Position numbers and translations under genes: made by a program. A DNA stretch of 64,000 bases from Vulgatibacter incomptus. GTDB lineage: Bacteria; Myxococcota; Myxococcia; Myxococcales; Vulgatibacteraceae. A model generated the notes under the pieces. That model was given only the letters and a program-made list of their open reading frames with translations. It was not told the DNA's origin and did not search any database. Within the stretch, counting starts at the first letter, position 1, and each line of letters opens with the position of its first letter. This document shows, piece by piece, positions 40,762 to 61,652 of the stretch. The stretch covers positions 2,167,501-2,231,500 of the forward strand of contig NZ_CP012332.1 in NCBI RefSeq assembly GCF_001263175.1, read 5' to 3'.

Positions 40762-43700
40762 ATGTCCGACTTCGTCCACCTACATCTCCACACCCTCTAT
40801 TCGCTCCTCGACGGCGCGATCCGGATGAAGGACCTGATCAAGGGGGTCAGCGAGAAGAAGATGTCGACCGTGGCCGTGACGGACCACGGCAACATGTTCG
40901 GCGCGGTGGACTTCTACAAGACCGCCAAGGCCGCGGGGATCAAGCCGATCTTCGGCTGCGAGGCCTACGTGGCCGGGCCGAAGGGGCGCGGGGATCGCAG
41001 CGAACGGGTCTCGAACCACCTCGTGCTCCTTGCGAAGGATCAGGAGGGGTGGCGGAACCTGCGCTACCTCGCGTCGATGGGCTACGTGGAGGGGCACTAC
41101 TACCACCCGCGTATCGACAAGCAGCTCCTCAAGAAGCACTCGAAGGGACTCTTCGGCCTCACCGCCTGCCTGGGCGGCGAGGTTCCCCAGCTCGCGAAGC
41201 GCGGCGACATGGACGGCGCCCGTCGGGCGGCGCTCGAATACAAGGAGATCTTCGAGCCGGGACACTTCTTCCTGGAGATCCAGTCGAACGGGATGGCGGA
41301 TCAGGAGATCGCCAACGCCGAGCTGAAGCAGCTCTCCCGCGACCTGGAAATCCCCCTCGCTGCCACCGCGGACGCGCACTACGTGAAGCGCGAGGACGCG
41401 AAGGCCCACGAGCTCCTGATGTGCATCGCGCAGGGGAAGCTCTATGACGATCCCAAGCGGATGCGCCACGAGACGGAGGAGCTCTACATCAAGAGCCCCG
41501 AGGAGATGCTGGCGCACTTCACCGACGTCCCCGAGGCGGTGGAGAACACCGTCCTCATCGGCCAGCAGTGCAACGTGGAGCTGGAGCTCGGCAAGGTCTA
41601 CCTCCCGAAGTTCCGGGTGCCGGACGGCCACGACAACGACAGCTTCCTCGCGCACCTGGCGCGGACGGGCCTCGACCGCCGCTTCAAGGAGCTGGAGAAG
41701 CGCTATCCCCTCGACCGGGACGAGTACCGGCGCCGGTTGGAGATGGAGATCGCCGTCATCCAGTCGATGGGGTTCTCCGGCTACTTCCTGATCGTCCAGG
41801 ACTTCATCAACTGGTCGAAGGAGCACGGGATCCCGGTGGGGCCGGGCCGCGGCTCGGGTGCGGGCTCGCTGGTGGCGTACACCCTGCGGATCACGGACAT
41901 CGATCCCATCCCCTACGCCCTCCTCTTCGAGCGCTTCCTCAACCCCGAGCGCGTCTCGATGCCGGACTTCGACGTCGACTTCTGCCAGACCCGCCGCGGG
42001 AAGGTGATCGACTACGTCACCCAGAAGTACGGCGAGGACAACGTCGGCCAGATCATCACCTTCGGCCAGCTCTCGGCCAAGAGCGCGATCAAGGATGTGG
42101 GCCGGGTGCTCGGTCTCACCTTTGGTGAATGCAACGAGCTCACCAAGAACATCCCCAACCTCGTCGATGGCAAGCCGCCCACGATCGAGAAGGCCCTCGA
42201 GGCGGATCCCGCGCTGCAGGAGCGGGTGAACGGCGACGCGCGGATCGGCGAGGTCTTCCGGATCGCGAAGGCGCTCCAGGGGCTGAACCGCCAGGCCGGC
42301 ATGCACGCCGCGGGCGTGGTGATCTCGGACAAGCCGCTCTGGGAGTACGTCCCGCTCTACCAGCCCTCGGGCGAGAAGTTCCTGGTCACGCAGTACGCCA
42401 AGGACGAGGTGGAGGAGGCGGGCCTGGTGAAGTTCGACTTCCTGGGCCTGAAGACGCTCACCGTGATCGACGACGCGATCGCGATGATCAACGAGAACAA
42501 CCCGGGGCAGACGCCGCTCAGCCCCGAGGTGATCCCGATCGACGACGCGAAGACCTACGAGATGCTTTCCCGGGGAGACACCCAGGGCGTCTTCCAGCTC
42601 GAATCGTCGGGCTTCACCGAGCTCCTCAAGAAGCTCAAGCCGGACCGCTTCGAAGACATCGTCGCCGCCGTGGCGCTCTATCGCCCGGGCCCGCTGCAGT
42701 CGGGCATGGTCGACGACTTCATCGAGCGAAAGCACGGGCGGCAGAAGGTCACCTACCCCCACCCCGACCTGGAGCCGATCCTGCGCCCGACCTACGGCGT
42801 GATCGTCTACCAGGAGCAGGTGATGCAGATCTCGCAGGTGCTCGGGGGTTACACCCTGGGTCGCGCCGATCTGCTCCGCCGCGCCATGGGCAAGAAGAAG
42901 GCGGAGGTGATGCAGCAGGAGCGCGTCGGCTTCGTGGACGGCGCGAAGAACAACTCGGTCGATCCGAAGCTGGCCGGCGAGATCTTCGACCTCATGGAGA
43001 AGTTCGCCGCGTACGGCTTCAACAAGTGCGTGGTGGGCGAGACGCGGGTCGTGGACGCGCACACTGGCGCCCTTGTGCGGGTGGACGAGCTCTTCGCCAG
43101 GCGTCCGGCGGGCTTCGAAACCCTCTCCCTCGACGAGACCACCGGCAAGATGGTGGCCCGCCGCGTCACCGACGTGATGCAGAACGGTGTGAAGCCCGTC
43201 TTCACCGTCACGACGGCCCAGGGAAAGAAGGTGACCGCCACCGGAAACCACCCTTTCCTCACCAAGACGGGCTGGAAGTGGCTCGAGGAGCTGCGGCAGG
43301 GAGAGGAGATCGCGACGCCGCGAGCTCTGCCCCTCGCCAGGGGCGCCTCGTGGCCGCGGCACCAGCTCGTGGTGCTGGCAGGCATGCTCTCCGGTGCGGC
43401 TTCGCGCGTGGACGGCGCGTGGGAGATCCGCCTGGGCTCCGAGGCGCTGGCGGAGGACTTCGAGCACGCGGCGCGCTGCTTCCGGCACACCGCGGTCACC
43501 GAGGTTCGCGGCTCCCGGATCCGCATCCAGGCGCCGCAGCCTTTCCTCGCCTCCGGCGGCGCCGCACCGCAGCTCCGGCCCGCCGGGGACTGCGAGCTCG
43601 GGACCTGGGCCAAAGCTCTCGGCGTCCTTTGCCACGAATCGACTCCCCAGCCGAGCGCTCAAGAGGCCCGAGGCGCTACCGCCGCGGCCTCGCTGCCCGC

Positions 43701-45546
43701 CGAGCTGTTCACGCTGCGCGACGGCGACCTCGAGCTCTTCCTCGGGCGGCTCTGGTCCGCGTCGGGGACGCTCTCGTCGACCCCTCTCCTCGCGGTCGCG
43801 AACGAGGGGCTCGCGCGGGATCTCCAGCACCTCCTCTCCCGCCTCGGCATCGTCGCCGCCGTGCGCCAGGGGAGAGCTCGTGAAACGAGCTCTCGCGGAG
43901 CCGAAGGCGGAGCAGACAAGAAGAGGAGCGTTTCCGCGCGGAGCGCGGGTGAAGAACTCGGGCCCGCTTCTGCGGGACCGAGTTCTTCACCCGCTCTGGC
44001 CGGGTGGAAGGTGAAGCTCCTGGGCGGCGACGCGGTCGAGGCCTTCCACCACCGGGTGGGCCCGCACCTGGTGGGCCGCGAGGAGGAGCGCCGTGCGATG
44101 GCGGAGCAGATCCTCGCCCGCAAGCGCACCAAGAGGCCCGAGGACGAGATCCACTGGGACGAGATCGTCTCGATCGAGCCCGCCGGCGAGGCGATTACCT
44201 ACGACCTCACCGTCGACGAGACCCACAACTTCGTGGCCGACGGGGTGATCGTCCACAACTCGCACTCGGCGGCCTACGCGCTGATCACCATGCAGACGGC
44301 GTGGCTCAAGTGCCACCACCGGGCCGAGTTCATGGCGGCGCTCCTCACGAGCGACGCGGACAAGACCGAGAAGCTCGTGGCCCACATCGCAGACTCGCGC
44401 GACCGCGATCTAGAGGTGCTGCCGCCCGACATCAACGAGTCGGCCCGCTCCTTCAACGGCCGCGGCAAGCAGATCCGCTTCGGCCTCGGCGGCGTGAAGG
44501 GAGTCGGCGAGACGGCGATCGACTCGATCCTGGAGGCCCGCCAGCGCAAGGGCGAGGATGGCCCCTTCTTCGGCCTCTACGACTTCTGCGAGCGGGTCGA
44601 CCTGCGGCGCGTGAACCGCAAAGTGATCGAGTGCCTGGTGCGCTGCGGCGCCTTCGACTTCACCGCGATCCCCCGGTGGCGCCTCTTTGGCTCCATCGAG
44701 CGTGCCCTCGAGAGGGGGCAGTCCACGCAGCGCGATCGCGCCAGCGGCCAGTCCTCACTCTTCGGCCTCCTGGCCGGTCCGGCGAAGGCCGAGGAGAAGA
44801 CGCCCGGCGGCGACGGCGACTATCCCGAGTCGGACCCGTGGACCGACAAGGAGAAGCTCGCCGGCGAGCGCGAGACCCTCGGCTTCTACATCACCGGCCA
44901 TCCCCTGGATCAATACGCGGACGAGATCCGCCGGGTCGCGACCCACACCACCGCCCGGGTGCTCTCGAGCGCCAGGAACGGAGACAGCGTCAAGGTCGTC
45001 GGCGTGGTCTCGGCCCTGCGCTCGCGGCCGACCAAGACGGGCAAGCTCATGGGCTTCGCCACGATCGAGGATCTCACGGGTACCGTCGAGGTGATCTGCT
45101 TCGCCGGCGGAAGACGGCCCGGGCCTCCCGGTCCCGGCAGGCCCGCAGCCCGCACCGGCGGCTTCGAGGTCTGGCAGCCGCTGCTGGAGACCGATCAGCC
45201 CCTGCTCGTGTCGGGGACGGTCCAGCTCAACACGCGCGACGAGGAGAACCCGATCGCGGAGCTCATCGCGGACGACATCACGCCGCTCGCTGAGGTCCGG
45301 GCGCGCCACGCGTCCCGGTTCACGCTCACGCTCGACGCCGATCAGGCCTCCGCCGACAAGCTGCAGCGGGCCCGCGCCCTCCTCGGCCAGCATCCGGGGC
45401 CGCTGACGGTCGAGCTCCACATCCGGATCCCGGATCGCTCCACCACGCGCGTCGTCGTCCGCGACCTGAAGGTCGCCCCGACCGACGAGCTCGGCGAGCG
45501 GCTCAACCTCCTCTTCGGCGCTCGGGTGGTCGGCGTCGGCGCCTGA
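40762..45546 (+). CDS. dnaE: DNA polymerase III alpha subunit (DnaE) interrupted by an intein
   Basis: Replicative polymerase catalytic subunit. The 1594-codon frame encodes about 1183 residues of DnaE plus a 411-residue intein (residues 756-1166). The PHP domain starts at FVHLHLHTLYSLLDGAIR, the polymerase metal-binding aspartates are in MPDFDVDF near residue 400, and HhH and OB domains follow (SVKVVGVVSALRSRPTKTGK). The intein interrupts EKFAAYGFNK/SHSAAYALI; precise excision restores an intact DnaE1. ATG 40762 is well supported by the PHP start. The frame stays open throughout, so active polymerase depends on splicing. Confidence 0.97.
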   Translation: MSDFVHLHLHTLYSLLDGAIRMKDLIKGVSEKKMSTVAVTDHGNMFGAVDFYKTAKAAGIKPIFGCEAYVAGPKGRGDRSERVSNHLVLLAKDQEGWRNLRYLASMGYVEGHYYHPRIDKQLLKKHSKGLFGLTACLGGEVPQLAKRGDMDGARRAALEYKEIFEPGHFFLEIQSNGMADQEIANAELKQLSRDLEIPLAATADAHYVKREDAKAHELLMCIAQGKLYDDPKRMRHETEELYIKSPEEMLAHFTDVPEAVENTVLIGQQCNVELELGKVYLPKFRVPDGHDNDSFLAHLARTGLDRRFKELEKRYPLDRDEYRRRLEMEIAVIQSMGFSGYFLIVQDFINWSKEHGIPVGPGRGSGAGSLVAYTLRITDIDPIPYALLFERFLNPERVSMPDFDVDFCQTRRGKVIDYVTQKYGEDNVGQIITFGQLSAKSAIKDVGRVLGLTFGECNELTKNIPNLVDGKPPTIEKALEADPALQERVNGDARIGEVFRIAKALQGLNRQAGMHAAGVVISDKPLWEYVPLYQPSGEKFLVTQYAKDEVEEAGLVKFDFLGLKTLTVIDDAIAMINENNPGQTPLSPEVIPIDDAKTYEMLSRGDTQGVFQLESSGFTELLKKLKPDRFEDIVAAVALYRPGPLQSGMVDDFIERKHGRQKVTYPHPDLEPILRPTYGVIVYQEQVMQISQVLGGYTLGRADLLRRAMGKKKAEVMQQERVGFVDGAKNNSVDPKLAGEIFDLMEKFAAYGFNKCVVGETRVVDAHTGALVRVDELFARRPAGFETLSLDETTGKMVARRVTDVMQNGVKPVFTVTTAQGKKVTATGNHPFLTKTGWKWLEELRQGEEIATPRALPLARGASWPRHQLVVLAGMLSGAASRVDGAWEIRLGSEALAEDFEHAARCFRHTAVTEVRGSRIRIQAPQPFLASGGAAPQLRPAGDCELGTWAKALGVLCHESTPQPSAQEARGATAAASLPAELFTLRDGDLELFLGRLWSASGTLSSTPLLAVANEGLARDLQHLLSRLGIVAAVRQGRARETSSRGAEGGADKKRSVSARSAGEELGPASAGPSSSPALAGWKVKLLGGDAVEAFHHRVGPHLVGREEERRAMAEQILARKRTKRPEDEIHWDEIVSIEPAGEAITYDLTVDETHNFVADGVIVHNSHSAAYALITMQTAWLKCHHRAEFMAALLTSDADKTEKLVAHIADSRDRDLEVLPPDINESARSFNGRGKQIRFGLGGVKGVGETAIDSILEARQRKGEDGPFFGLYDFCERVDLRRVNRKVIECLVRCGAFDFTAIPRWRLFGSIERALERGQSTQRDRASGQSSLFGLLAGPAKAEEKTPGGDGDYPESDPWTDKEKLAGERETLGFYITGHPLDQYADEIRRVATHTTARVLSSARNGDSVKVVGVVSALRSRPTKTGKLMGFATIEDLTGTVEVICFAGGRRPGPPGPGRPAARTGGFEVWQPLLETDQPLLVSGTVQLNTRDEENPIAELIADDITPLAEVRARHASRFTLTLDADQASADKLQRARALLGQHPGPLTVELHIRIPDRSTTRVVVRDLKVAPTDELGERLNLLFGARVVGVGA
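43027..44259 (+). mobile_element. DnaE intein with degenerate LAGLIDADG endonuclease
   Basis: Block A starts CVVGETRV (Cys 1). Block B has TGNHPFLT with the TxxH histidine at intein position 75. Block F/G ends YDLTVDETHNFVADGVIVHN followed by Ser as the +1 residue, so all splicing residues are present. The endonuclease region has two recognisable but degraded LAGLIDADG helices, VVLAGMLSGAAS (about residue 870) and LELFLGRLWSASG (about 990), in which the acidic residue is replaced by Ala or Ser. The insertion point is three residues beyond the site used by the cyanobacterial split DnaE intein. Confidence 0.93.
43872..43998 (-). repeat. Palindromic element, copy 2, in frame inside the dnaE intein
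   Basis: Read on the minus strand, this 127-bp stretch matches copies 1 and 3 in order: first hairpin (43947-43992, a 15-bp perfect stem GGGTGAAGAACTCGG plus a 5-bp inner stem), second hairpin CCGCGC/TCC/GCGCGG, the AACGCTCCTCTTC core, the CGCCTTCGGC segment and a terminal hairpin GAGAGCTCGT/GAA/ACGAGCTCTC (43872-43894). On the plus strand it is translated as about 42 residues (1037-1079 of the DnaE frame) rich in Ala, Ser, Gly and Arg, between LGIVAAVRQ and WKVKLLGG of the endonuclease domain. Confidence 0.9.
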
Positions 45547-47303: not shown

Positions 47304-47636
47304 ATGCTCCCTGGACGCATGTTCTGCCTTGCGCTGGCTTTCTCCTATTTGTCGATCGCCGGCGCGTGTAGCGACGGTGCTTCTTCGCATGGATCGGAGT
47401 CGAAGCCGACGCCGATCGAAGTCGAGCCGGCCAGCGCAGAGGTGAGAACCGGGGAACGACAGACGTTCACAGCCGTCGACGTCGAAGGCGCCGCCGTGGC
47501 GGTGGTCTGGTCGGTCGCGGAGGCCCACGGCGGAACCATCGACCCGAAGGGTCGGTACACGGCCCAGCGTTGCCCGGGACGTTCACGTTGGTCGCGTCCC
47601 GGATCGGCAATCCGGAGATCCGCGCGACGTCCGTGA
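47304..47636 (+). pseudogene. 5' part of the giant Ig-repeat gene, frameshifted off
   Basis: Encodes a lipoprotein signal (MFCLALAFSYLSIAGAC, lipobox AGAC), a short Ser-rich spacer and the first Ig-like repeat up to GGTIDPKGRYTA. Codons after about 47562 (QRCPGRSRW...) no longer fit the repeat, whereas frame +2 from there reads ALPGTFTLVAS, the expected continuation. Adding one C at 47563-47565 would give YTAPALPGTF and a single 2644-residue reading frame ending at 55237. ATG 47304 has GGAG 6 nt upstream. This is either a true frameshift or a sequencing error. Confidence 0.75.
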
Positions 47637-50600
47637 TCCGGGTCCGTGCCGGCCCGGACGACTCGCCCATCGTCCTCGAGCCACCATCGGCGACAGTGGA
47701 CGCTGGCGGGCGCCGCCAGTTCCACGCCGTTGTCCTGGGCAGCGACGACCAGGCCGTGATCTGGCGCGTCGACGAAGGCGCACGGGGAGGCGCGGTCGAT
47801 CCCACGGGCCTCTACACGGCTCCTTCGGCACCAGGTGTATTCACTTTAGTCGCAACCAGCGTCATCGACCCCGATCTCAGCGCGTCAGCCTCTATCACCG
47901 TGAGGGAACGGGAGCCGGTGGTCGTCACAGTCGAACCGGCCACGATCGACCTCCTCGCCGCGGAGCGCCTGCGATTCCAGGCCATCGTCTCCGGTGCCGA
48001 CGACACGACCGTGAGCTGGACCACGTCGGCCGGAACAATCGACGCCACCGGCCTCTACACCGCTCCATCCGAACCGGGCACCTACTCGGTGATCGCTACC
48101 AGCCTCGCCGATCCGCAGGCCAGCGCCACCGCGCAAGTCACCGTGCGGGCGCAAGAGCCGGTGGTCGTCACGATCGACCCCGCCGAAATCGGCCTTCTCA
48201 GCTCCGAGAGCCACCGGTTCCAAGCTCGGGTGTCAGGCATCAACGATCACTCGGTGAACTGGTCCGCGTCGGGCGGCACGATCGACTCCACCGGGCTCTA
48301 CACCGCTCCGACCGAACTCGGCCTGTACACGGTTGTCGCCACCAGCCTGGTGGATCCGCAGGCGACCGGCACGGCGCAAGTCACAGTGAGGGCGCGAGAA
48401 CCCGTCGTGGTCTCGATCGACCCGACCTACGTCGAGCTCCTCACCTCAGAGAGCCAGCGGTTCCAAGCCTGGGTGTCCGGCACCGACGATCATTCAGTGA
48501 GCTGGTCCGCGTCGGGAGGCACCATCGACTCGACCGGGCTCTACACCGCCCCATCCGAGCAGGGAACCTACTCCGTAGTCGCCACCAGCCTGGCCGACCC
48601 GCAGTCCAGCGCCACTGCGCAAGTCGTCGTGAGGGCGCGAGAGCCGGTCGTCGTCACGATCGAACCCGCCGAAATCGAGCTTCTCACTTCCGAGAGTCAC
48701 CTGTTCCAAGCTCGGGTGTCCGGAACCGACGATCACGGCGTGAGCTGGTCCGCGTCGCGCGGCACGATCGACTCTGGCCTCTATACGGCTCCACCCGAGC
48801 CGGGAACCTACACTCTGGTCGCAACCAGCCTGGCCAACCCGCAAAGCAGCGCCACCGCTCAAGTTACGGTCAAGGCACGAGAGCCGGTCGTCGTCACGAT
48901 CGAACCTTCCGATATCGAGCTCCTCACTTCCGAGAGTCACCTATTCCAAGCTCGGGTTTCGGGAACCGTCGACCAAATAGTGAGCTGGACCGCGTCGGGC
49001 GGCACGATCGACTCCACCGGCCTCTACACCGCTTCGACAGAACCAGGCGTGTACACGGTCATCGCCACCAGCCTGGCCGATCCGCAAAGCAGCGCCACCG
49101 CGCAGGTCACGGTCAAGGCACGGGAGCCGGTCGTCGTCACGATTGAGCCTACCGAAATCGAGCTTCTCACTTCCGAGAGCCACCGGTTCCAAGCTCGAGT
49201 TTCCGGCACCGAGGACCACACCGTCAGCTGGTCCGCGTCGGGCGGCACGATAGTCGCCACGGGCCTCTACACCGCCCCCTCTGAGCCGGGAACCTACTCC
49301 GTGGTTGCCACCAGCTTTGCTGATCCGCAGGCCACCGCCACCGCGCAGGTTGTCGTGAGGGCGCGGGAGCCGGTCGTCGTCTCGATCGACCCGATCTACG
49401 TCGAGCTCCTCACCTCCGAGAGCCAGCGTTTCCAAGCGTGGGTGTCCGGCACCGACGACCATACGGTGAGCTGGTCAGCGTCAGGCGGCACCATCGACGC
49501 AGGGGGCCTCTACACTTCACCGTCGGAGCCGGGAACTTACTCCGTAGTCGCCACCAGCCTGGCCGATCCGCAGAGCGGCGCCACCGCGCAGGTCGTCGTG
49601 AGGGCGCGAGAGCCGGTAGTCGTCACGATCGAACCCGCCGAAATCGAGCTTCTCACTTCCGAGAGCCACCTGTTCCAGGCGTCGGTCTCCGGCACCACCG
49701 ACCAGGCCGTGACCTGGTCCGCAACAGCCGGCGCCATCGACTCAACTGGCCTCTACACCGCACCTTCCCAACCGGGAACCTACGCCGTGATGGTGACCAG
49801 CCTCGCCGACCGGCGGGCCACCGCCACGGCGCAGGTCGTCGTGAGGGCGCGAGAGCCGGTCGTCGTCACGATCGAACCCACCGAAATCGAGCTTCTCACT
49901 TCCGAGAGCCGCAGGTTCCAGGCGTCGGTATCCGGCACCAACGACCATACGGTGAGCTGGTCGGCATCGGGCGGCACCATCGACCCGACAGGCCTCTTCA
50001 CCGCCCCGTCTCATCAAGGAACATTCGTGGTCGTCGCGACGAGCCTGGCCGAGCCGCAGAGCAGTGCCACCGCCCAAGTCAGGGTGACGGCGCGAGAGCC
50101 GGTCATCGTCACGATCGAACCCGCCGAAATCGAGCTCCTCACCTCTGAGAGCCGCCGGTTCCAGGCGTCTGTATCCGGCACCACCGACCAGGCCGTGACC
50201 TGGTCCGCACCAGCAGGCGTCATCGACGCAACCGGCCTCTACACTGCCCCTTCGGACCCGGGAACCTACGCCGTGATTGCGACCAGCCTTGCCGATCCGC
50301 AGGCAAGCGCCACCGCGCGGATCATGGTCAAGGCGCGGGAGCCGGTCGTTGTTTCGATCGACCCGATCTTCGTCGAGCTCCTCACCTCCGAGAGCCAGCG
50401 GTTCCAAGCGTGGGTATCCGGCACCACCGACCAGGCCGTGACCTGGTTCGCATCGGCCGGCGCCATCGACGCAACCGGTCTCTTCGCCGCCCCGTCTCAA
50501 CCGGGGACCTACTCCGTGGTTGCCACCAGCTTGGCTGATCCGCAGGCCACCGCCATCGCGCAGGTTGTCGTGAAGGCGCGAGAGCCGATCGTCGTCTCGA

Positions 50601-53600
50601 TCGACCCGATCTTCGTCGAGCTCCTCACCTCCGAGAGCCAGCGGTTCCAAGCGTGGGTATCCGGCACCACCGACCAGGCCGTGACCTGGTTCGCATCGGC
50701 CGGCGCCATCGACGCAACCGGCCTCTTCGCCGCCCCGTCTCAACCGGGAACCTACGCCGTAGTCGCCACCAGCCTCGCCGACCCGCGGGCCAGCGCCACC
50801 GCGCGGATCACGGTGAGGGCCCGAGAGCCGGTCGTCGTCACAATCGAACCCACCGAGATCGAGCTTCTCACGTCCGAGAGCCACCTGTTCGAATCCCGGG
50901 TGTCGGGCACGAACGACGGGCGCGTGAGTTGGTTTGCATCTCACGGGACCGTCGACGACGGAGGCCTTTACACCGCCCCGCCCGAGCCGGGAACCTATGC
51001 CGTGACAGCAACCAGCCTCGCCGATCCGCGAGCAAGCGCCACCGCGCAGGTCGTCGTGAGGGCGCGAGAGCCGGTCGTCGTCACGATCGAACCCGCCGAA
51101 ATCGAGCTTCTCACTTCCGAGAGCCACCGGTTCCAGGCGTCGGTATCCGGCACCACCGACCAAGCCGTGACCTGGTCCGCGTCAGCCGGCTTCATCGACA
51201 CAACTGGCCTCTTCACCGCCCCGTCTCAGCCAGGAACATTCGTGGTCGTCGCGACGAGCCTGGCAGAGCCGCAGAGCAGTGCCACCGCGCGAGTCAGGGT
51301 AATGGCGCGAGAGCCGGTCGTCGTCACGATCGAACCCGCCGAAATCGAGCTCCTCACCTCTGAGAGCCGCCGGTTCCAGGCGTCTGTATCCGGCACCACC
51401 GACCAGGCCGTGACCTGGTCCGCACCAGCAGGCGTCATCGACGCAACCGGCCTCTACACTGCCCCTTCGGACCCGGGAATCTACGCCGTGATTGCGACCA
51501 GCCTTGCCGATCCGCAGGCAAGCGCCACCGCGCGGATCACGGTCAAGGCGCGGGAGCCGGTCATTGTTTCGATCGACCCGATCTACGTCGAGCTCCTCAC
51601 CTCCGAGAGCCAGCGATTCCAAGCGTGGGTCTCCGGCACCGACGACCGTACGGTGAGCTGGTCGGCGTCGGGTGGCACCATCGACGGAGGCGGCCTCTAC
51701 ATTGCCCCGTCGGATTCGGGGACCTACTCCGTGGTTGCCACCAGCTTGGCTGATCCGCAGGCCACCGCCACAGCGCAGGTTGTCGTGAAGGCGCGGGAGC
51801 CGGTCGTCGTCTCGATCGACCCGACCTACGTCGAGCTCCTCACCTCCGAGAGCCAGCGGTTCCAAGCGTGGGTATCCGGCACCACCGACCAGGCCGTGAC
51901 CTGGTTCGCATCGGCCGGCGCCATCGACGCAACCGGCCTCTTCGCCGCCCCGTCTCAACCGGGAACCTACGCCGTGGTCGCCACCAGCCTGGCCGATCCG
52001 CAGAGCAGCGCCACCGCGCAGGTCGTCGTGAGGGCGCGAGAGCCGGTCGTCGTCACAATCGAACCCGCCGAAATCGAGCTTCTCACTTCCGAGAGCCACC
52101 GGTTCCAAACTCGGGTGTCGGGAACCGTCGACCAGACGGTGAGGTGGTCCACGTCGATCGGCACGATCGACTCCAGCGGCCTCTACACCGCTCCGTCTGA
52201 ACCCGGGATGTACGTGGTCGTCGCCACCAGCCTCGCCGATCCACAGAGCAGCGCCACCGCGCAGGTCGTCGTGAGGGCGCGAGAGCCGATCGTCGTCTCG
52301 ATCGACCCGATCTACGTCGAGCTCCTCACCTTCGAGAGCCAGCGTTTCCTGGTTTGGTTGTCCGGCACCGCCGATCAATCAGTGAGCTGGTCGGCGTCGG
52401 GTGGCACCATCAACGCGGGCGGCCAATTCAATGCCCCGTCGGAGCCGGGGACCTACTCCGTGATCGCCACCAGCCTGGCCGATCCGCAGAGCAGCGCCAC
52501 TGCGCAGGTCGTCGTGAGGGCGCGAGAGCCGGTGGTCGTCGCGATCGAACCCGCCGAAATCGAGCTCCTCACTTCCGAGAGCCACCGATTTCAAGCTCGG
52601 GTTACTGGCACAGACGATCACGGCGTGAGCTGGTTCGCCTCGGGCGGCACGATCGATTTCACCGGCCTCTACACCGCTCCGACAGGACCAGGCGTGTACA
52701 CGGTCATCGCCACCAGCCTGGCCGATCCGCAGAGCAGCGCCACCGTGCAGGTCGTCGTGAGGGCACGAGAGCCGGTCGTCGTCACGATCGATCCCGCCGA
52801 AATCGAGCTTCTCACTTCCGAGAGCCACCGGTTCCAAGCTCGGGTATCCGGCACCAACGACCGTACGGTGAGCTGGTCGACGTCGGGTGGCACCATCGAC
52901 GAAGGCGGCCTATTCGTTGCTCCGTCAGAGCCGGGAATCTACGCCGTCATCGCCACCAGCCTGGCCGATCCGCACTCCACCGCAACCGCGCGGATCACGG
53001 TGTGGGAACGAGAGCCCGTGATCGTCTCGATCGTGCCCGTCGAGATTCAGGTCCTCATCTCGGAAAGCTTCCGGTTCCAGGCGTCGGTATCCGGCACCAC
53101 CGACCAGGCCGTGACCTGGTCTGCGTCAGCCGGCGTCATCGACGCAACCGGCCTCTTCACCGCCCCGTCTCGGCCTGGAATCTACGCCGTCGTCGCGACG
53201 AGCCTGGCCGACCCGCGAGGCAGCGCCACGGCGCGAGTCACGGTGAGGCCGCGAGAGCCCGCAGTCGTCACGATCGCTCCCGGTGATATCGAACTCCTCA
53301 CCTTGGAGAGCCATCAATTCTACGCGATGGTCTCGGGCGCGAGCGACTCGGCCGTGACCTGGAGCGCGTCCAGGGGCACGATCGACGCCGGCGGCCGATA
53401 CACCGCTCCGATCGTACCCGGCCTCTACACAGTGGTCGCAACCTCCGTCGCCGATCCTGGCGCCGTCGCCATCGCGTTGGTCACGGTGGTCGAGCCCCCT
53501 GTCGAGGGTCTGCTCCCGGCGGACCGGATCACGCTTTGGGAGCCAGGCCTCATGGCGGTTGGCGGGATCCCTTCGGATCACGACGCCCGCCGTCCAGCGA

Positions 53601-55237
53601 CCATCTACCTACCAGCCGGAAATCCGTACGCGGGCTTCTCGGTGAATCCCGCTCTGGCCGACGGCACGACCGACGCCGCGGCCGCCATCCAGGCCGCCCT
53701 GAACGCCGCTGGCAACCAGGCCCGCGAAACCAGCCGACGGGTCGTGTACCTAGCCGCCGGTACCTACTTCATCAGCGGCGAAGGCCTGAACGTCCCGAGC
53801 TTCGTGACCCTGCGCGGACGCGGGGCCCGCGGCGACACCGTTACGAGGCTCGTCAAAGCCGAAGGAAGCCAAATGTCGGTGATCAACCTCGGCCATCTCT
53901 GGGTGAAGAACACGACGCCGGTCGACGTGACCGCGGATGTCCCCCGCGGAGCGACACGGGTGACGCTGGCGCGCAATCCCGGCTACCGCGTGGGCGAGCT
54001 CGTCTTCATCGACCAGCTCGTCGACTCCGAACGCGTGGGCTCCTGGTGGAATCCGATCAACCAGCCGGAACCGGACGGTCCCGAGCGCAGCTGGTACTCC
54101 CGGCAGAATAGGCCCACCGGCCAAGTGCTCGAGATCGCCGCAATCGACGGGAACACCCTCACCTTCGGCACGCCTGTACGACTCCCGTATTTCACCTCCA
54201 ACCAGGCCCAGGTGGTCCGGTTCGCCGGCGGCGACCAGGGCGGCCCGATGGTGCCGACCAAGAAGTGGTCGGGAGTCGAGGACCTCTACGTCGCCGGCGG
54301 AGAGCAGGGGAACGTCGCCTTCTACGCCACCTCGTACAGCTGGGCGAAGAACGTGGAGAGCGATCGTTCCAACGGAAGCAGCATCGCTTTCGAGAGCACG
54401 TTCCGTTGCGAGGCACGGGACTCGTTCTTCCATAGCACCGCGAACCCCAATCCAGGCGGCGGCGGATACGGCATCGACCTTCGGATCTATGCCTCCGACA
54501 ACCTGGTCGAGAACAACATCTCCTGGAACTTCAACAAGGTGATCACCATGCGCGCCGCCGGCCCCGGCAACGTGGTCGCCTACAACTACTTCGAAGACGG
54601 ATGGGGCGCCGGGTACCCGATGATTCCCGAGGTGGGCTTGAATGCGTCGCATTACTCGACGACTCACTACACGCTCTTCGAGGGAAACCAGGCCTTCAAC
54701 ATCTCCGGCGACGCCTACTGGGGCAACTCGATCTTCAACCTCTATTTCCGCAACCACGCGACGGGGCGCAGGCGCTCCCTCCCGCCGCTCGAGCTGAGCG
54801 ACGAGATCACCAGGCGGTTCGTCGAGGTCCCGGAGTGGCACCTCGCGTGCAGCTATGTCGGGAACGTGCTCGGCAGCAGCGACATGAGCGCCGAGCCGCA
54901 ATCCGGCTTCGTCTACGAAGGCAGGCCGCCCTGGTATTGGGACCCGGTTCCGATTTGGGCAATCGGCGTCGAGCACAACGCCGGACTCGAGGGTCAGGAC
55001 GCTGCGGTCGTCGCCACGACTCTCCGCCACGGCAACTTCGACTACGTCACCCGGGGGATCGTCTGGGATCCCGGGATCGGAGACCACCGGCTCCCGGCGT
55101 CGCTCTATCTGGTCTCGAAGCCCGCCTTCTTCGGTGACCATCCCTGGCCGTGGGTCACGCCGGAGGACGCGGCGAATCGCACAAGGGTCCTCCCTGCGCG
55201 AGAGCGATTCGACTCGCTCCTCTCGAGCAGCAACTGA
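47570..55237 (+). CDS. Giant Ig-like tandem-repeat protein with C-terminal pectate-lyase-like beta-helix
   Basis: A 2555-codon open frame; its TTG at 47570 is merely where the frame opens after a frameshift, and the real N-terminus is the fragment at 47304. It holds 24 further bacterial Ig-like repeats (25 with the first), mostly exactly 81 residues, with consensus elements ELLTSES.RFQA.VSG, V.WSAS.GTID..GLYTAP and PGTY.V.ATSLADP. From about residue 1980 comes a 575-residue right-handed beta-helix domain of the Pectate_lyase_3 type (DGTTDAAAAIQAALNAAGNQ, VVYLAAGTY). Likely a long stalk presenting a polysaccharide-acting domain at the cell surface. Enzyme activity is inferred from fold only. 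Confidence 0.85.
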   Translation: MPGTFTLVASRIGNPEIRATSVIRVRAGPDDSPIVLEPPSATVDAGGRRQFHAVVLGSDDQAVIWRVDEGARGGAVDPTGLYTAPSAPGVFTLVATSVIDPDLSASASITVREREPVVVTVEPATIDLLAAERLRFQAIVSGADDTTVSWTTSAGTIDATGLYTAPSEPGTYSVIATSLADPQASATAQVTVRAQEPVVVTIDPAEIGLLSSESHRFQARVSGINDHSVNWSASGGTIDSTGLYTAPTELGLYTVVATSLVDPQATGTAQVTVRAREPVVVSIDPTYVELLTSESQRFQAWVSGTDDHSVSWSASGGTIDSTGLYTAPSEQGTYSVVATSLADPQSSATAQVVVRAREPVVVTIEPAEIELLTSESHLFQARVSGTDDHGVSWSASRGTIDSGLYTAPPEPGTYTLVATSLANPQSSATAQVTVKAREPVVVTIEPSDIELLTSESHLFQARVSGTVDQIVSWTASGGTIDSTGLYTASTEPGVYTVIATSLADPQSSATAQVTVKAREPVVVTIEPTEIELLTSESHRFQARVSGTEDHTVSWSASGGTIVATGLYTAPSEPGTYSVVATSFADPQATATAQVVVRAREPVVVSIDPIYVELLTSESQRFQAWVSGTDDHTVSWSASGGTIDAGGLYTSPSEPGTYSVVATSLADPQSGATAQVVVRAREPVVVTIEPAEIELLTSESHLFQASVSGTTDQAVTWSATAGAIDSTGLYTAPSQPGTYAVMVTSLADRRATATAQVVVRAREPVVVTIEPTEIELLTSESRRFQASVSGTNDHTVSWSASGGTIDPTGLFTAPSHQGTFVVVATSLAEPQSSATAQVRVTAREPVIVTIEPAEIELLTSESRRFQASVSGTTDQAVTWSAPAGVIDATGLYTAPSDPGTYAVIATSLADPQASATARIMVKAREPVVVSIDPIFVELLTSESQRFQAWVSGTTDQAVTWFASAGAIDATGLFAAPSQPGTYSVVATSLADPQATAIAQVVVKAREPIVVSIDPIFVELLTSESQRFQAWVSGTTDQAVTWFASAGAIDATGLFAAPSQPGTYAVVATSLADPRASATARITVRAREPVVVTIEPTEIELLTSESHLFESRVSGTNDGRVSWFASHGTVDDGGLYTAPPEPGTYAVTATSLADPRASATAQVVVRAREPVVVTIEPAEIELLTSESHRFQASVSGTTDQAVTWSASAGFIDTTGLFTAPSQPGTFVVVATSLAEPQSSATARVRVMAREPVVVTIEPAEIELLTSESRRFQASVSGTTDQAVTWSAPAGVIDATGLYTAPSDPGIYAVIATSLADPQASATARITVKAREPVIVSIDPIYVELLTSESQRFQAWVSGTDDRTVSWSASGGTIDGGGLYIAPSDSGTYSVVATSLADPQATATAQVVVKAREPVVVSIDPTYVELLTSESQRFQAWVSGTTDQAVTWFASAGAIDATGLFAAPSQPGTYAVVATSLADPQSSATAQVVVRAREPVVVTIEPAEIELLTSESHRFQTRVSGTVDQTVRWSTSIGTIDSSGLYTAPSEPGMYVVVATSLADPQSSATAQVVVRAREPIVVSIDPIYVELLTFESQRFLVWLSGTADQSVSWSASGGTINAGGQFNAPSEPGTYSVIATSLADPQSSATAQVVVRAREPVVVAIEPAEIELLTSESHRFQARVTGTDDHGVSWFASGGTIDFTGLYTAPTGPGVYTVIATSLADPQSSATVQVVVRAREPVVVTIDPAEIELLTSESHRFQARVSGTNDRTVSWSTSGGTIDEGGLFVAPSEPGIYAVIATSLADPHSTATARITVWEREPVIVSIVPVEIQVLISESFRFQASVSGTTDQAVTWSASAGVIDATGLFTAPSRPGIYAVVATSLADPRGSATARVTVRPREPAVVTIAPGDIELLTLESHQFYAMVSGASDSAVTWSASRGTIDAGGRYTAPIVPGLYTVVATSVADPGAVAIALVTVVEPPVEGLLPADRITLWEPGLMAVGGIPSDHDARRPATIYLPAGNPYAGFSVNPALADGTTDAAAAIQAALNAAGNQARETSRRVVYLAAGTYFISGEGLNVPSFVTLRGRGARGDTVTRLVKAEGSQMSVINLGHLWVKNTTPVDVTADVPRGATRVTLARNPGYRVGELVFIDQLVDSERVGSWWNPINQPEPDGPERSWYSRQNRPTGQVLEIAAIDGNTLTFGTPVRLPYFTSNQAQVVRFAGGDQGGPMVPTKKWSGVEDLYVAGGEQGNVAFYATSYSWAKNVESDRSNGSSIAFESTFRCEARDSFFHSTANPNPGGGGYGIDLRIYASDNLVENNISWNFNKVITMRAAGPGNVVAYNYFEDGWGAGYPMIPEVGLNASHYSTTHYTLFEGNQAFNISGDAYWGNSIFNLYFRNHATGRRRSLPPLELSDEITRRFVEVPEWHLACSYVGNVLGSSDMSAEPQSGFVYEGRPPWYWDPVPIWAIGVEHNAGLEGQDAAVVATTLRHGNFDYVTRGIVWDPGIGDHRLPASLYLVSKPAFFGDHPWPWVTPEDAANRTRVLPARERFDSLLSSSN
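47918..53496 (+). repeat. Tandem array of 23 near-identical 243-bp Ig-domain units
   Basis: Units begin at the codons for VVVT.EP or VVVSIDP. From the first full-identity unit (47918) to the last (53261) is 5343 bp, which is 22 x 243 minus 3; the sixth domain of the gene lacks one codon (IDSGLY). Two sub-types alternate: VTIEPAEIELLTSESHRFQA and VSIDP.YVELLTSESQRFQAW. Some units are almost identical at the DNA level (50355, 50598 and 51813), and the three-unit block starting near 49849 recurs 1215 bp (five units) downstream. Confidence 0.92.
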
Positions 55238-61523: not shown

Positions 61524-61652
61524 AGAGCGTGTGAAGAAATCGCCCCCGCGGCGCGGGAGCGATTCCTTCATCTCGCGCTGCGCGCGAGAAGCGCTCCTTT
61601 TCGTTTGCTCGCCTCCGGCTCGCGAGAGCTTGTGAATTCTTCACAAGCTCTC
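61524..61652 (+). repeat. Palindromic element, copy 3 (ilvA / outer-membrane gene gap)
   Basis: A full-length copy of about 129 bp: imperfect first hairpin (GAAGAAATCGC... GCGATTCCTTC), second hairpin CTCGCGC/TGC/GCGCGAG, core AGCGCTCCTTTTCGTTTGCT, CGCCTCCGGCTCGCGAG, and a terminal hairpin GAGAGCTTGTGAA/TTC/TTCACAAGCTCTC with a perfect 13-bp stem (61624-61652). It fills the gap between convergent genes and its last bases overlap the stop codon of the gene at 61651. It may act as a terminator here. Confidence 0.88.

Follow-up and report, generated by a model that had tools for sequence, protein, structure and literature searches.

The genome of Vulgatibacter incomptus contains, at more than 100 sites, a dispersed palindromic repeat some 130 nt long that occurs in none of the relatives that we searched, and comparison with related proteins indicates that one of its copies inserted in frame into the intein of dnaE. 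The explanation that we favor, with a probability of roughly 85%, is that the repeat is a non-autonomous mobile element moved in trans, one copy of which landed in the intein without breaking the reading frame. The whole stretch of 64,000 nt that was analyzed is called the window below, and coordinates refer to it unless a genome position is given.

An element copy in the dnaE intein

The gene for the DNA polymerase III alpha subunit, dnaE (40762–45546, + strand), is an ORF of 1594 aa that carries an intein of 411 aa, insert included (43027–44259, + strand; delimited by Pfam and by relatives). The intein lies between AAYGFNK upstream and SHSAAYA downstream and contains both a splicing domain (PF14890, Intein_splicing; E = 1.6e-24) and an endonuclease domain (PF14528, LAGLIDADG_3; E = 6.5e-5). 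Its splice-end residues, read by eye, are kept (N-terminal Cys1; C-terminal HN followed by Ser). The LAGLIDADG endonuclease appears to have decayed, as the earlier note had proposed for the site of the insertion: the motif reads LGRLWSASG instead of the LGRLWAGDG of two more distant inteins, the acidic residue being gone. Since that residue is also missing from the nearest relative, the intein of a genome of another genus in the same family (G144; LGRLWSARG), its loss probably predates the insertion.

The element copy occupies 43872–43996 (+ strand; 125 nt) and is in frame in the dnaE ORF; the start given in the earlier note was confirmed, and its end, 43998, had to be moved to 43996. The 5′ hairpin (H1; 43872–43894, + strand), a member of a covarying hairpin family, has a shortened loop, and the copy is 6 nt short in this hairpin compared with the commonest, 131-nt H1-bearing form of its subtype. 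The core (43895–43996, + strand) comprises a GCC-GAA-GGC mini-hairpin, a CCGCGC-GGA-GCGCGG hairpin, and the long H3, within GAGCG/CGCTC. The 151 nt around the copy were predicted to fold at −90.6 kcal/mol, against a mean of −64.7 kcal/mol for shuffled sequences (z = −6.2; none of 200 shuffles was as good).

The insert lies between VRQ and GWKV, in the LAGLIDADG endonuclease region, and adds about 42 residues. The G144 intein (60% identity) aligned to residues 1–281 and 322–411 of the V. incomptus intein through stretches of its DNA that touch each other, and the junction LGIVAAVRQ–insert–GWKVKLLGG is matched there by LGIVAAVR-PVQHG-YKVRVLGG. The gap in the DNA alignment falls at the junction, between LGIVAAVRQ and WKVKLLGG, for which an insertion of this size had been claimed. 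Two further inteins, with 41–42% identity, carry 9–10 other residues at the site, which is therefore filled here and empty in all three closest inteins; this supports the view that a dispersed palindromic element entered an intein within dnaE. This comparison covers the three closest inteins; other genomes gave only short or weak matches, which were left unaligned, and tblastn against a genome collection from which the V. incomptus genome itself may be left out found no relatives of the intein.

We give almost no weight to a chance resemblance between the repeats and what would simply be an old, normal segment of the intein. This idea is refuted by the DNA identity of 80–92% between the intein copy and 39 dispersed BLAST matches and by the three closest inteins, in which the same residues were sought and are absent.

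Census and distribution

BLAST of the region against the V. incomptus genome returned 44 matches, a number that includes the self-match as well as several hits that are partial or on the opposite strand. From 26 copies we built a covariance model, which scored 150 candidates and gave 148 hits with E ≤ 0.1 in the same genome. Flanks were fetched for 124 of these 148 hits, 24 being left unfollowed; the best 115 were counted, and 113 distinct copies were left once copies 46 and 58, which duplicate copies 45 and 57, had been removed. The weak or partial copies 115–123 lay outside the flank counts, with copies 117 and 120 kept in the list of H1 hairpins.

These two duplicates stem from the near identity of the two contig ends: G000:C1:2331-13986 and G000:C1:4336491-4348146 show 39 differences in 11,656 bases, perhaps an untrimmed circular overlap. 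This amounts to at least one assembly blemish and might lend some color to an assembly or annotation artefact as the source of the insert; however, the window is far from the contig ends, the copies differ among themselves, and six separate ORFs carry the insert between unique flanks, so we regard an artefact as highly improbable.

The window holds two more copies. Copy 92 (61525–61652, − strand) has an H1, starts on the TGA stop of the upstream sense gene, and is followed by a convergent gene; copy 59 (27921–28018, − strand) is a core without a recognized H1. Replication-strand bias was not seen when copies were counted by contig half (31+/31− and 25+/28−), a crude split with origin and terminus unlocated.

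With stricter filters, which may have lost weak copies, the covariance model gave no hit in 141 other genomes of the order or in 194 other genomes of the phylum, two sets that overlap. An exact 24-nt core pattern had no match in 84,980 GTDB species genomes, a core pattern had no exact match in viral contigs, and one 140-nt copy searched in distant mode had no match in plasmid and phage collections; from each of these sets the organism's own record may be left out. The best score against Rfam (four sources) was 30.8 bits, a chance-level value compared with the gathering score of 79. Searches of open-license literature listed nothing relevant on the element family, on palindromic repeats in the order, or on inteins that carry an element of this sort.

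Modular architecture and preserved pairing

The element consists of the 5′ hairpin H1 (GAGAGCTYGTGA...TCACRAGCTCTC and variants), a GAGCCGAAGGCGGAGC module, the CCGCGC-GGA-GCGCGG hairpin, the long H3, and a CGCTC end. Within the subtype of the intein copy, the most frequent H1-bearing form measures 131 nt; another subtype measures 128–129 nt. Its ends, assigned partly by eye, are GAGAGC and CGCTC, which are partly complementary, the inverted ends reaching 5–6 nt at most. Some copies have a doubled module and some have no H1. Composite elements with two tandem GGAGCCGAAGGCGGAGC modules were observed (e.g., the G000 copies at 2955897, 594698, 530996, and 1118935), and the family thus has subtypes assembled from shared parts.

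Pairing in H1 is kept through changes on both sides in 4 of 12 pairs (13 cells), a level that none of 500 shuffles reached. This analysis used 22 of the 36 compiled hairpins, mainly after dropping repeats, and the percentage of paired positions is inflated because the compiled hairpins had been chosen for complementarity. Six core pairs, H3 pairs among them, have both sides changed in at least one copy. Pairing is therefore preserved, be it for a transposase or for a role in RNA.

Placement at gene 3′ ends and the TGA junction

The 3′ end of a gene is the usual home of the element family, a habitat that, together with five host proteins other than the intein, adds to what the earlier note had described. 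The left flank could be classified confidently in 96 of the 113 copies, of which 75 follow sense-coding and 21 antisense sequence (binomial p = 2.7e-8). A stop codon lies between −60 and +6 of the core in 59 of these 96 copies, compared with 109 of 3499 random points. The 75 sense flanks include six copies inside ORFs and 59 with a stop within that interval. The stops of the 69 sense genes outside the in-ORF copies are TGA in 59 cases, TAG in 6, and TAA in 4 (raw counts). On the right-hand side, 37 of the 38 antisense genes listed, duplicates included, have their end between −10 and +67 relative to the end of the core.

Truncation of the upstream genes by the element was considered and ruled out. 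For 22 upstream genes, G144 has a homologue; in 20 of these a stop was visible, and there the two C-termini always lie within 0–15 residues of each other. The stops thus look natural, and the element sits at gene ends without shortening the genes.

These positions bear on another explanation, in which the copies are domesticated 3′ RNA elements that act behind stop codons on stability, transcription, or translation and are held by selection, the six copies in ORFs being strays. We consider it possible but doubtful. It would account for the sense-strand placement at gene 3′ ends and for the covarying pairs of H1 and H3 with both sides changed, and it has a parallel in E. coli, where translation can be reduced by REPs that follow a stop codon closely and those within 15 nt of the stop are reported to stall ribosomes (passages of PMC12306157). 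It fits less well with the searched relatives, which have no copy even though the corresponding genes have the same end point in them, with the 21 antisense flanks among 96, and with a simple terminator scan, applied to one copy only, that found no T-tailed hairpin.

The junction itself is narrowly defined. Among 41 distinct H1-bearing copies, a TGA stop forms the exact start of 27, and the right edge, CGCTC, is followed by TGA in 21 of these 27 compared with none of the other 14 (p = 1.1e-6). Such flanks recall a MITE-type element whose short ends, GAGAGC...GCTCT, would be recognized by a cut-and-paste transposase that duplicates a few bases of the target (e.g., TGA or a single T), and the partly complementary ends would suit such an element as well. 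We nevertheless think this origin unlikely: the inverted ends span only 5–6 nt, whereas the terminal inverted repeats of MITEs measure 15–30 bp in the portions of PMC3733652 that treat them, and the flanking trinucleotides are mismatched in most of the other 14 H1 copies.

Returning to a repeat moved in trans, we offer one tentative refinement, namely a preference of the machinery for targets that resemble TGA (N|GA). Most landings would then fall harmlessly on TGA stops, and the few within genes would be tolerated because the one sense frame that is free of stops reads as a hydrophilic linker. If this were true, Myxococcota would have in this element a natural device for inserting in-frame tags, nested even in an intein with a dead endonuclease inside dnaE. 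The strict TGA junction makes target choice a testable claim.

Copies inside proteins

At least six copies lie inside ORFs: those of the intein, of apolipoprotein N-acyltransferase (Lnt), of an alpha/beta hydrolase, of a UvrD-type helicase that we take to be HelD-like, and of two proteins without Pfam hits. They were flagged by a codon-usage classifier that was correct for 94% of 40-codon pieces of its own training ORFs and that may miss others, hence the lower bound. The classifier flagged seven copies as lying in one ORF; the antisense copy 23 was set aside by judgement, since its right flank is weakly classified (margin 0.9) and a start codon seems to follow the copy directly. Beside the copy inside lnt, a further copy lies antisense in an open frame just upstream of that gene (copy 24; G000:C1:2132670-2132772, − strand; about 3.0 kb into locus L124) and was not counted as being within lnt.

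Empty sites were found in the relatives of the other hosts as well, among aligned subsets of the matched proteins: 15 of 15 for Lnt and 18 of 18 each for the first unnamed protein, the hydrolase, and the helicase. For the second unnamed protein, the evidence is one relative in which, judged from coordinates only, 21 codons take the place of the 65 residues present here. The gap in the first unnamed protein spans about 67 columns, as an A/G-rich stretch past the element is also missing in the relatives. In the Lnt of one relative (locus L207), a different insertion lies a few residues downstream of the element site.

All six in-ORF copies are on the sense strand and are read in one common frame of the element (...EEVGPASAGPISS.AL). 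The only stop-free frames across a canonical copy are this sense frame and one antisense frame; were the two equally likely to be used, six sense copies out of six would arise by chance once in 64, which is suggestive and not strong. The peptide of the used frame has a net charge of −3, and that of the sense frame between the edge TGAs +10. Canonical in-ORF copies measure 131 nt (125 nt in the intein), and one more duplicated base or its equivalent is needed for a multiple of three, giving 132 nt or 44 codons (126 nt or 42 codons in the intein).

An open frame that had evolved for coding was considered for the element and found to be unsupported. Among 101 copies outside ORFs, the used frame is open in 66, compared with 75 expected from shuffles; it is thus not specially kept open, and nothing points to evolution of the element for coding. 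By comparison, 99 and 86 of these 101 copies are open in two antisense frames of the core.

Candidate mobilizing enzyme

The non-autonomous repeat that we favor could be moved by one of six RAYT-like HUH transposases of V. incomptus, a class that acts on hairpins. One of these is encoded in the window (22435–23115, + strand; 226 aa; Y1_Tnp/IS200-like) and is a candidate mobilizing enzyme, with a PF01797 score of 20.0 bits, below the 23-bit cut-off. The other five paralogues are 72–84% identical to it, and G144 has none. NHLHLVV, as a possible HUH motif, and a candidate Tyr were identified by eye in RAYT-like sequence, and one of three proteins scored above the Pfam cut-off for Y1_Tnp.

In the passages of PMC2817692 on the subject, IS200/IS605-type transposases recognize stem-loops and generate no larger target duplications, and the hairpins near both ends of the element together with its fixed left junction recall such transposition. 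RAYT genes are described there and in parts of PMC3733652 as having REPs on both sides, or TIRs instead in certain species. Unlike RAYT/REPtron systems, in which the repeats around the gene are in inverted orientation, none of the six RAYT-like genes has a listed element copy within 4 kb, and the flanks of three of them contain no element match longer than 15 nt. The RAYT-like family occurs in 34 of 142 genomes of the order, with up to 22 matches in one genome, and 33 of these genomes are without the element. Because no copy lies near the RAYT-like genes and these 33 genomes have such genes and no element, we hold mobilization by RAYT at about one in three. Upstream of two of the RAYT-like genes lies a short common block in which a GGGTGACAC motif is repeated (locus L178, approximately 1241–1287; locus L180, approximately 1231–1278).

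As to survival, a landing on a stop codon would leave the protein whole, so that the copy persists, and a landing within an ORF would survive only at a tolerant site and through the stop-free sense frame, read as a hydrophilic peptide. In the intein, the insert would leave with the intein at protein splicing, and the mature DnaE would stay unchanged.

Relation to known repeats

In-frame palindromic repeats have been known so far from Rickettsia, Wolbachia, and scattered other bacteria. Rickettsia palindromic elements (RPEs) are described in parts of PMC2229807 and PMC3767692 as repeats of approximately 105–146 bp with long stem-loops that occur between genes and in frame in conserved proteins (the first report counted 19 such reading frames), and an extended RPE-4 is reported there in the DNA polymerase III alpha chain. 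The present element likewise is dispersed and palindromic, measures 128–131 nt, and interrupts conserved proteins in frame at sites that are empty in relatives, whereas it belongs to another phylum, most of its classifiable copies are at gene 3′ ends, and its host within dnaE is an intein. The resemblance to RPEs that had been suggested for the copy in dnaE therefore holds for behavior and does not extend to membership, as far as a comparison by description and the lack of an exact match to the 24-nt core pattern in GTDB species genomes can tell.

GTAG/CGTC REPs, according to sections of PMC3733652, are tagged repeats of 20–40 bp that lie mostly near gene 3′ ends, the termini of GTAG REPs often supplying a TAG stop; many of those inside ORFs are in genes for DNA synthesis and repair, including DnaE2 and the DnaE of R. 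conorii. The present element shares the placement downstream of genes (59 of 96 copies versus 109 of 3499 control points) and differs in its size of 128–131 nt, its modular build with several hairpins, and its ends, which have neither a GTAG nor a CGTC tag and supply TGA. YPAL/RU-2, ERIC, and Correia/NEMIS repeats of enterobacteria and Neisseria are structured repeats of approximately 107–168 bp, some of them fused in frame to ORFs, and the inverted repeats of YPAL are internal (parts of PMC2229807); compared by description, the element is like them in size, structure, and in-frame fusion. It is unlike MITEs in that its inverted ends of 5–6 nt fall below terminal inverted repeats of 15–30 bp.

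As in-frame palindromic repeats are on record in the parts of PMC3733652 and PMC2229807 that concern them, the behavior of the element is not of a new kind: it is already known in print from other bacteria, and in dnaE too. What is new is the element family, which is private, larger, and TGA-junctioned, with one copy nested in an intein.

A family that is private within its phylum, combined with empty sites for six host proteins, makes the cost of such inserts to a protein testable, and the intein copy is a useful special case because its insert should be removed together with the intein. Elsewhere in the window, an ORF of 2555 aa (47570–55237) contains 23 tandem units of approximately 243 bp that are 60–85% alike.
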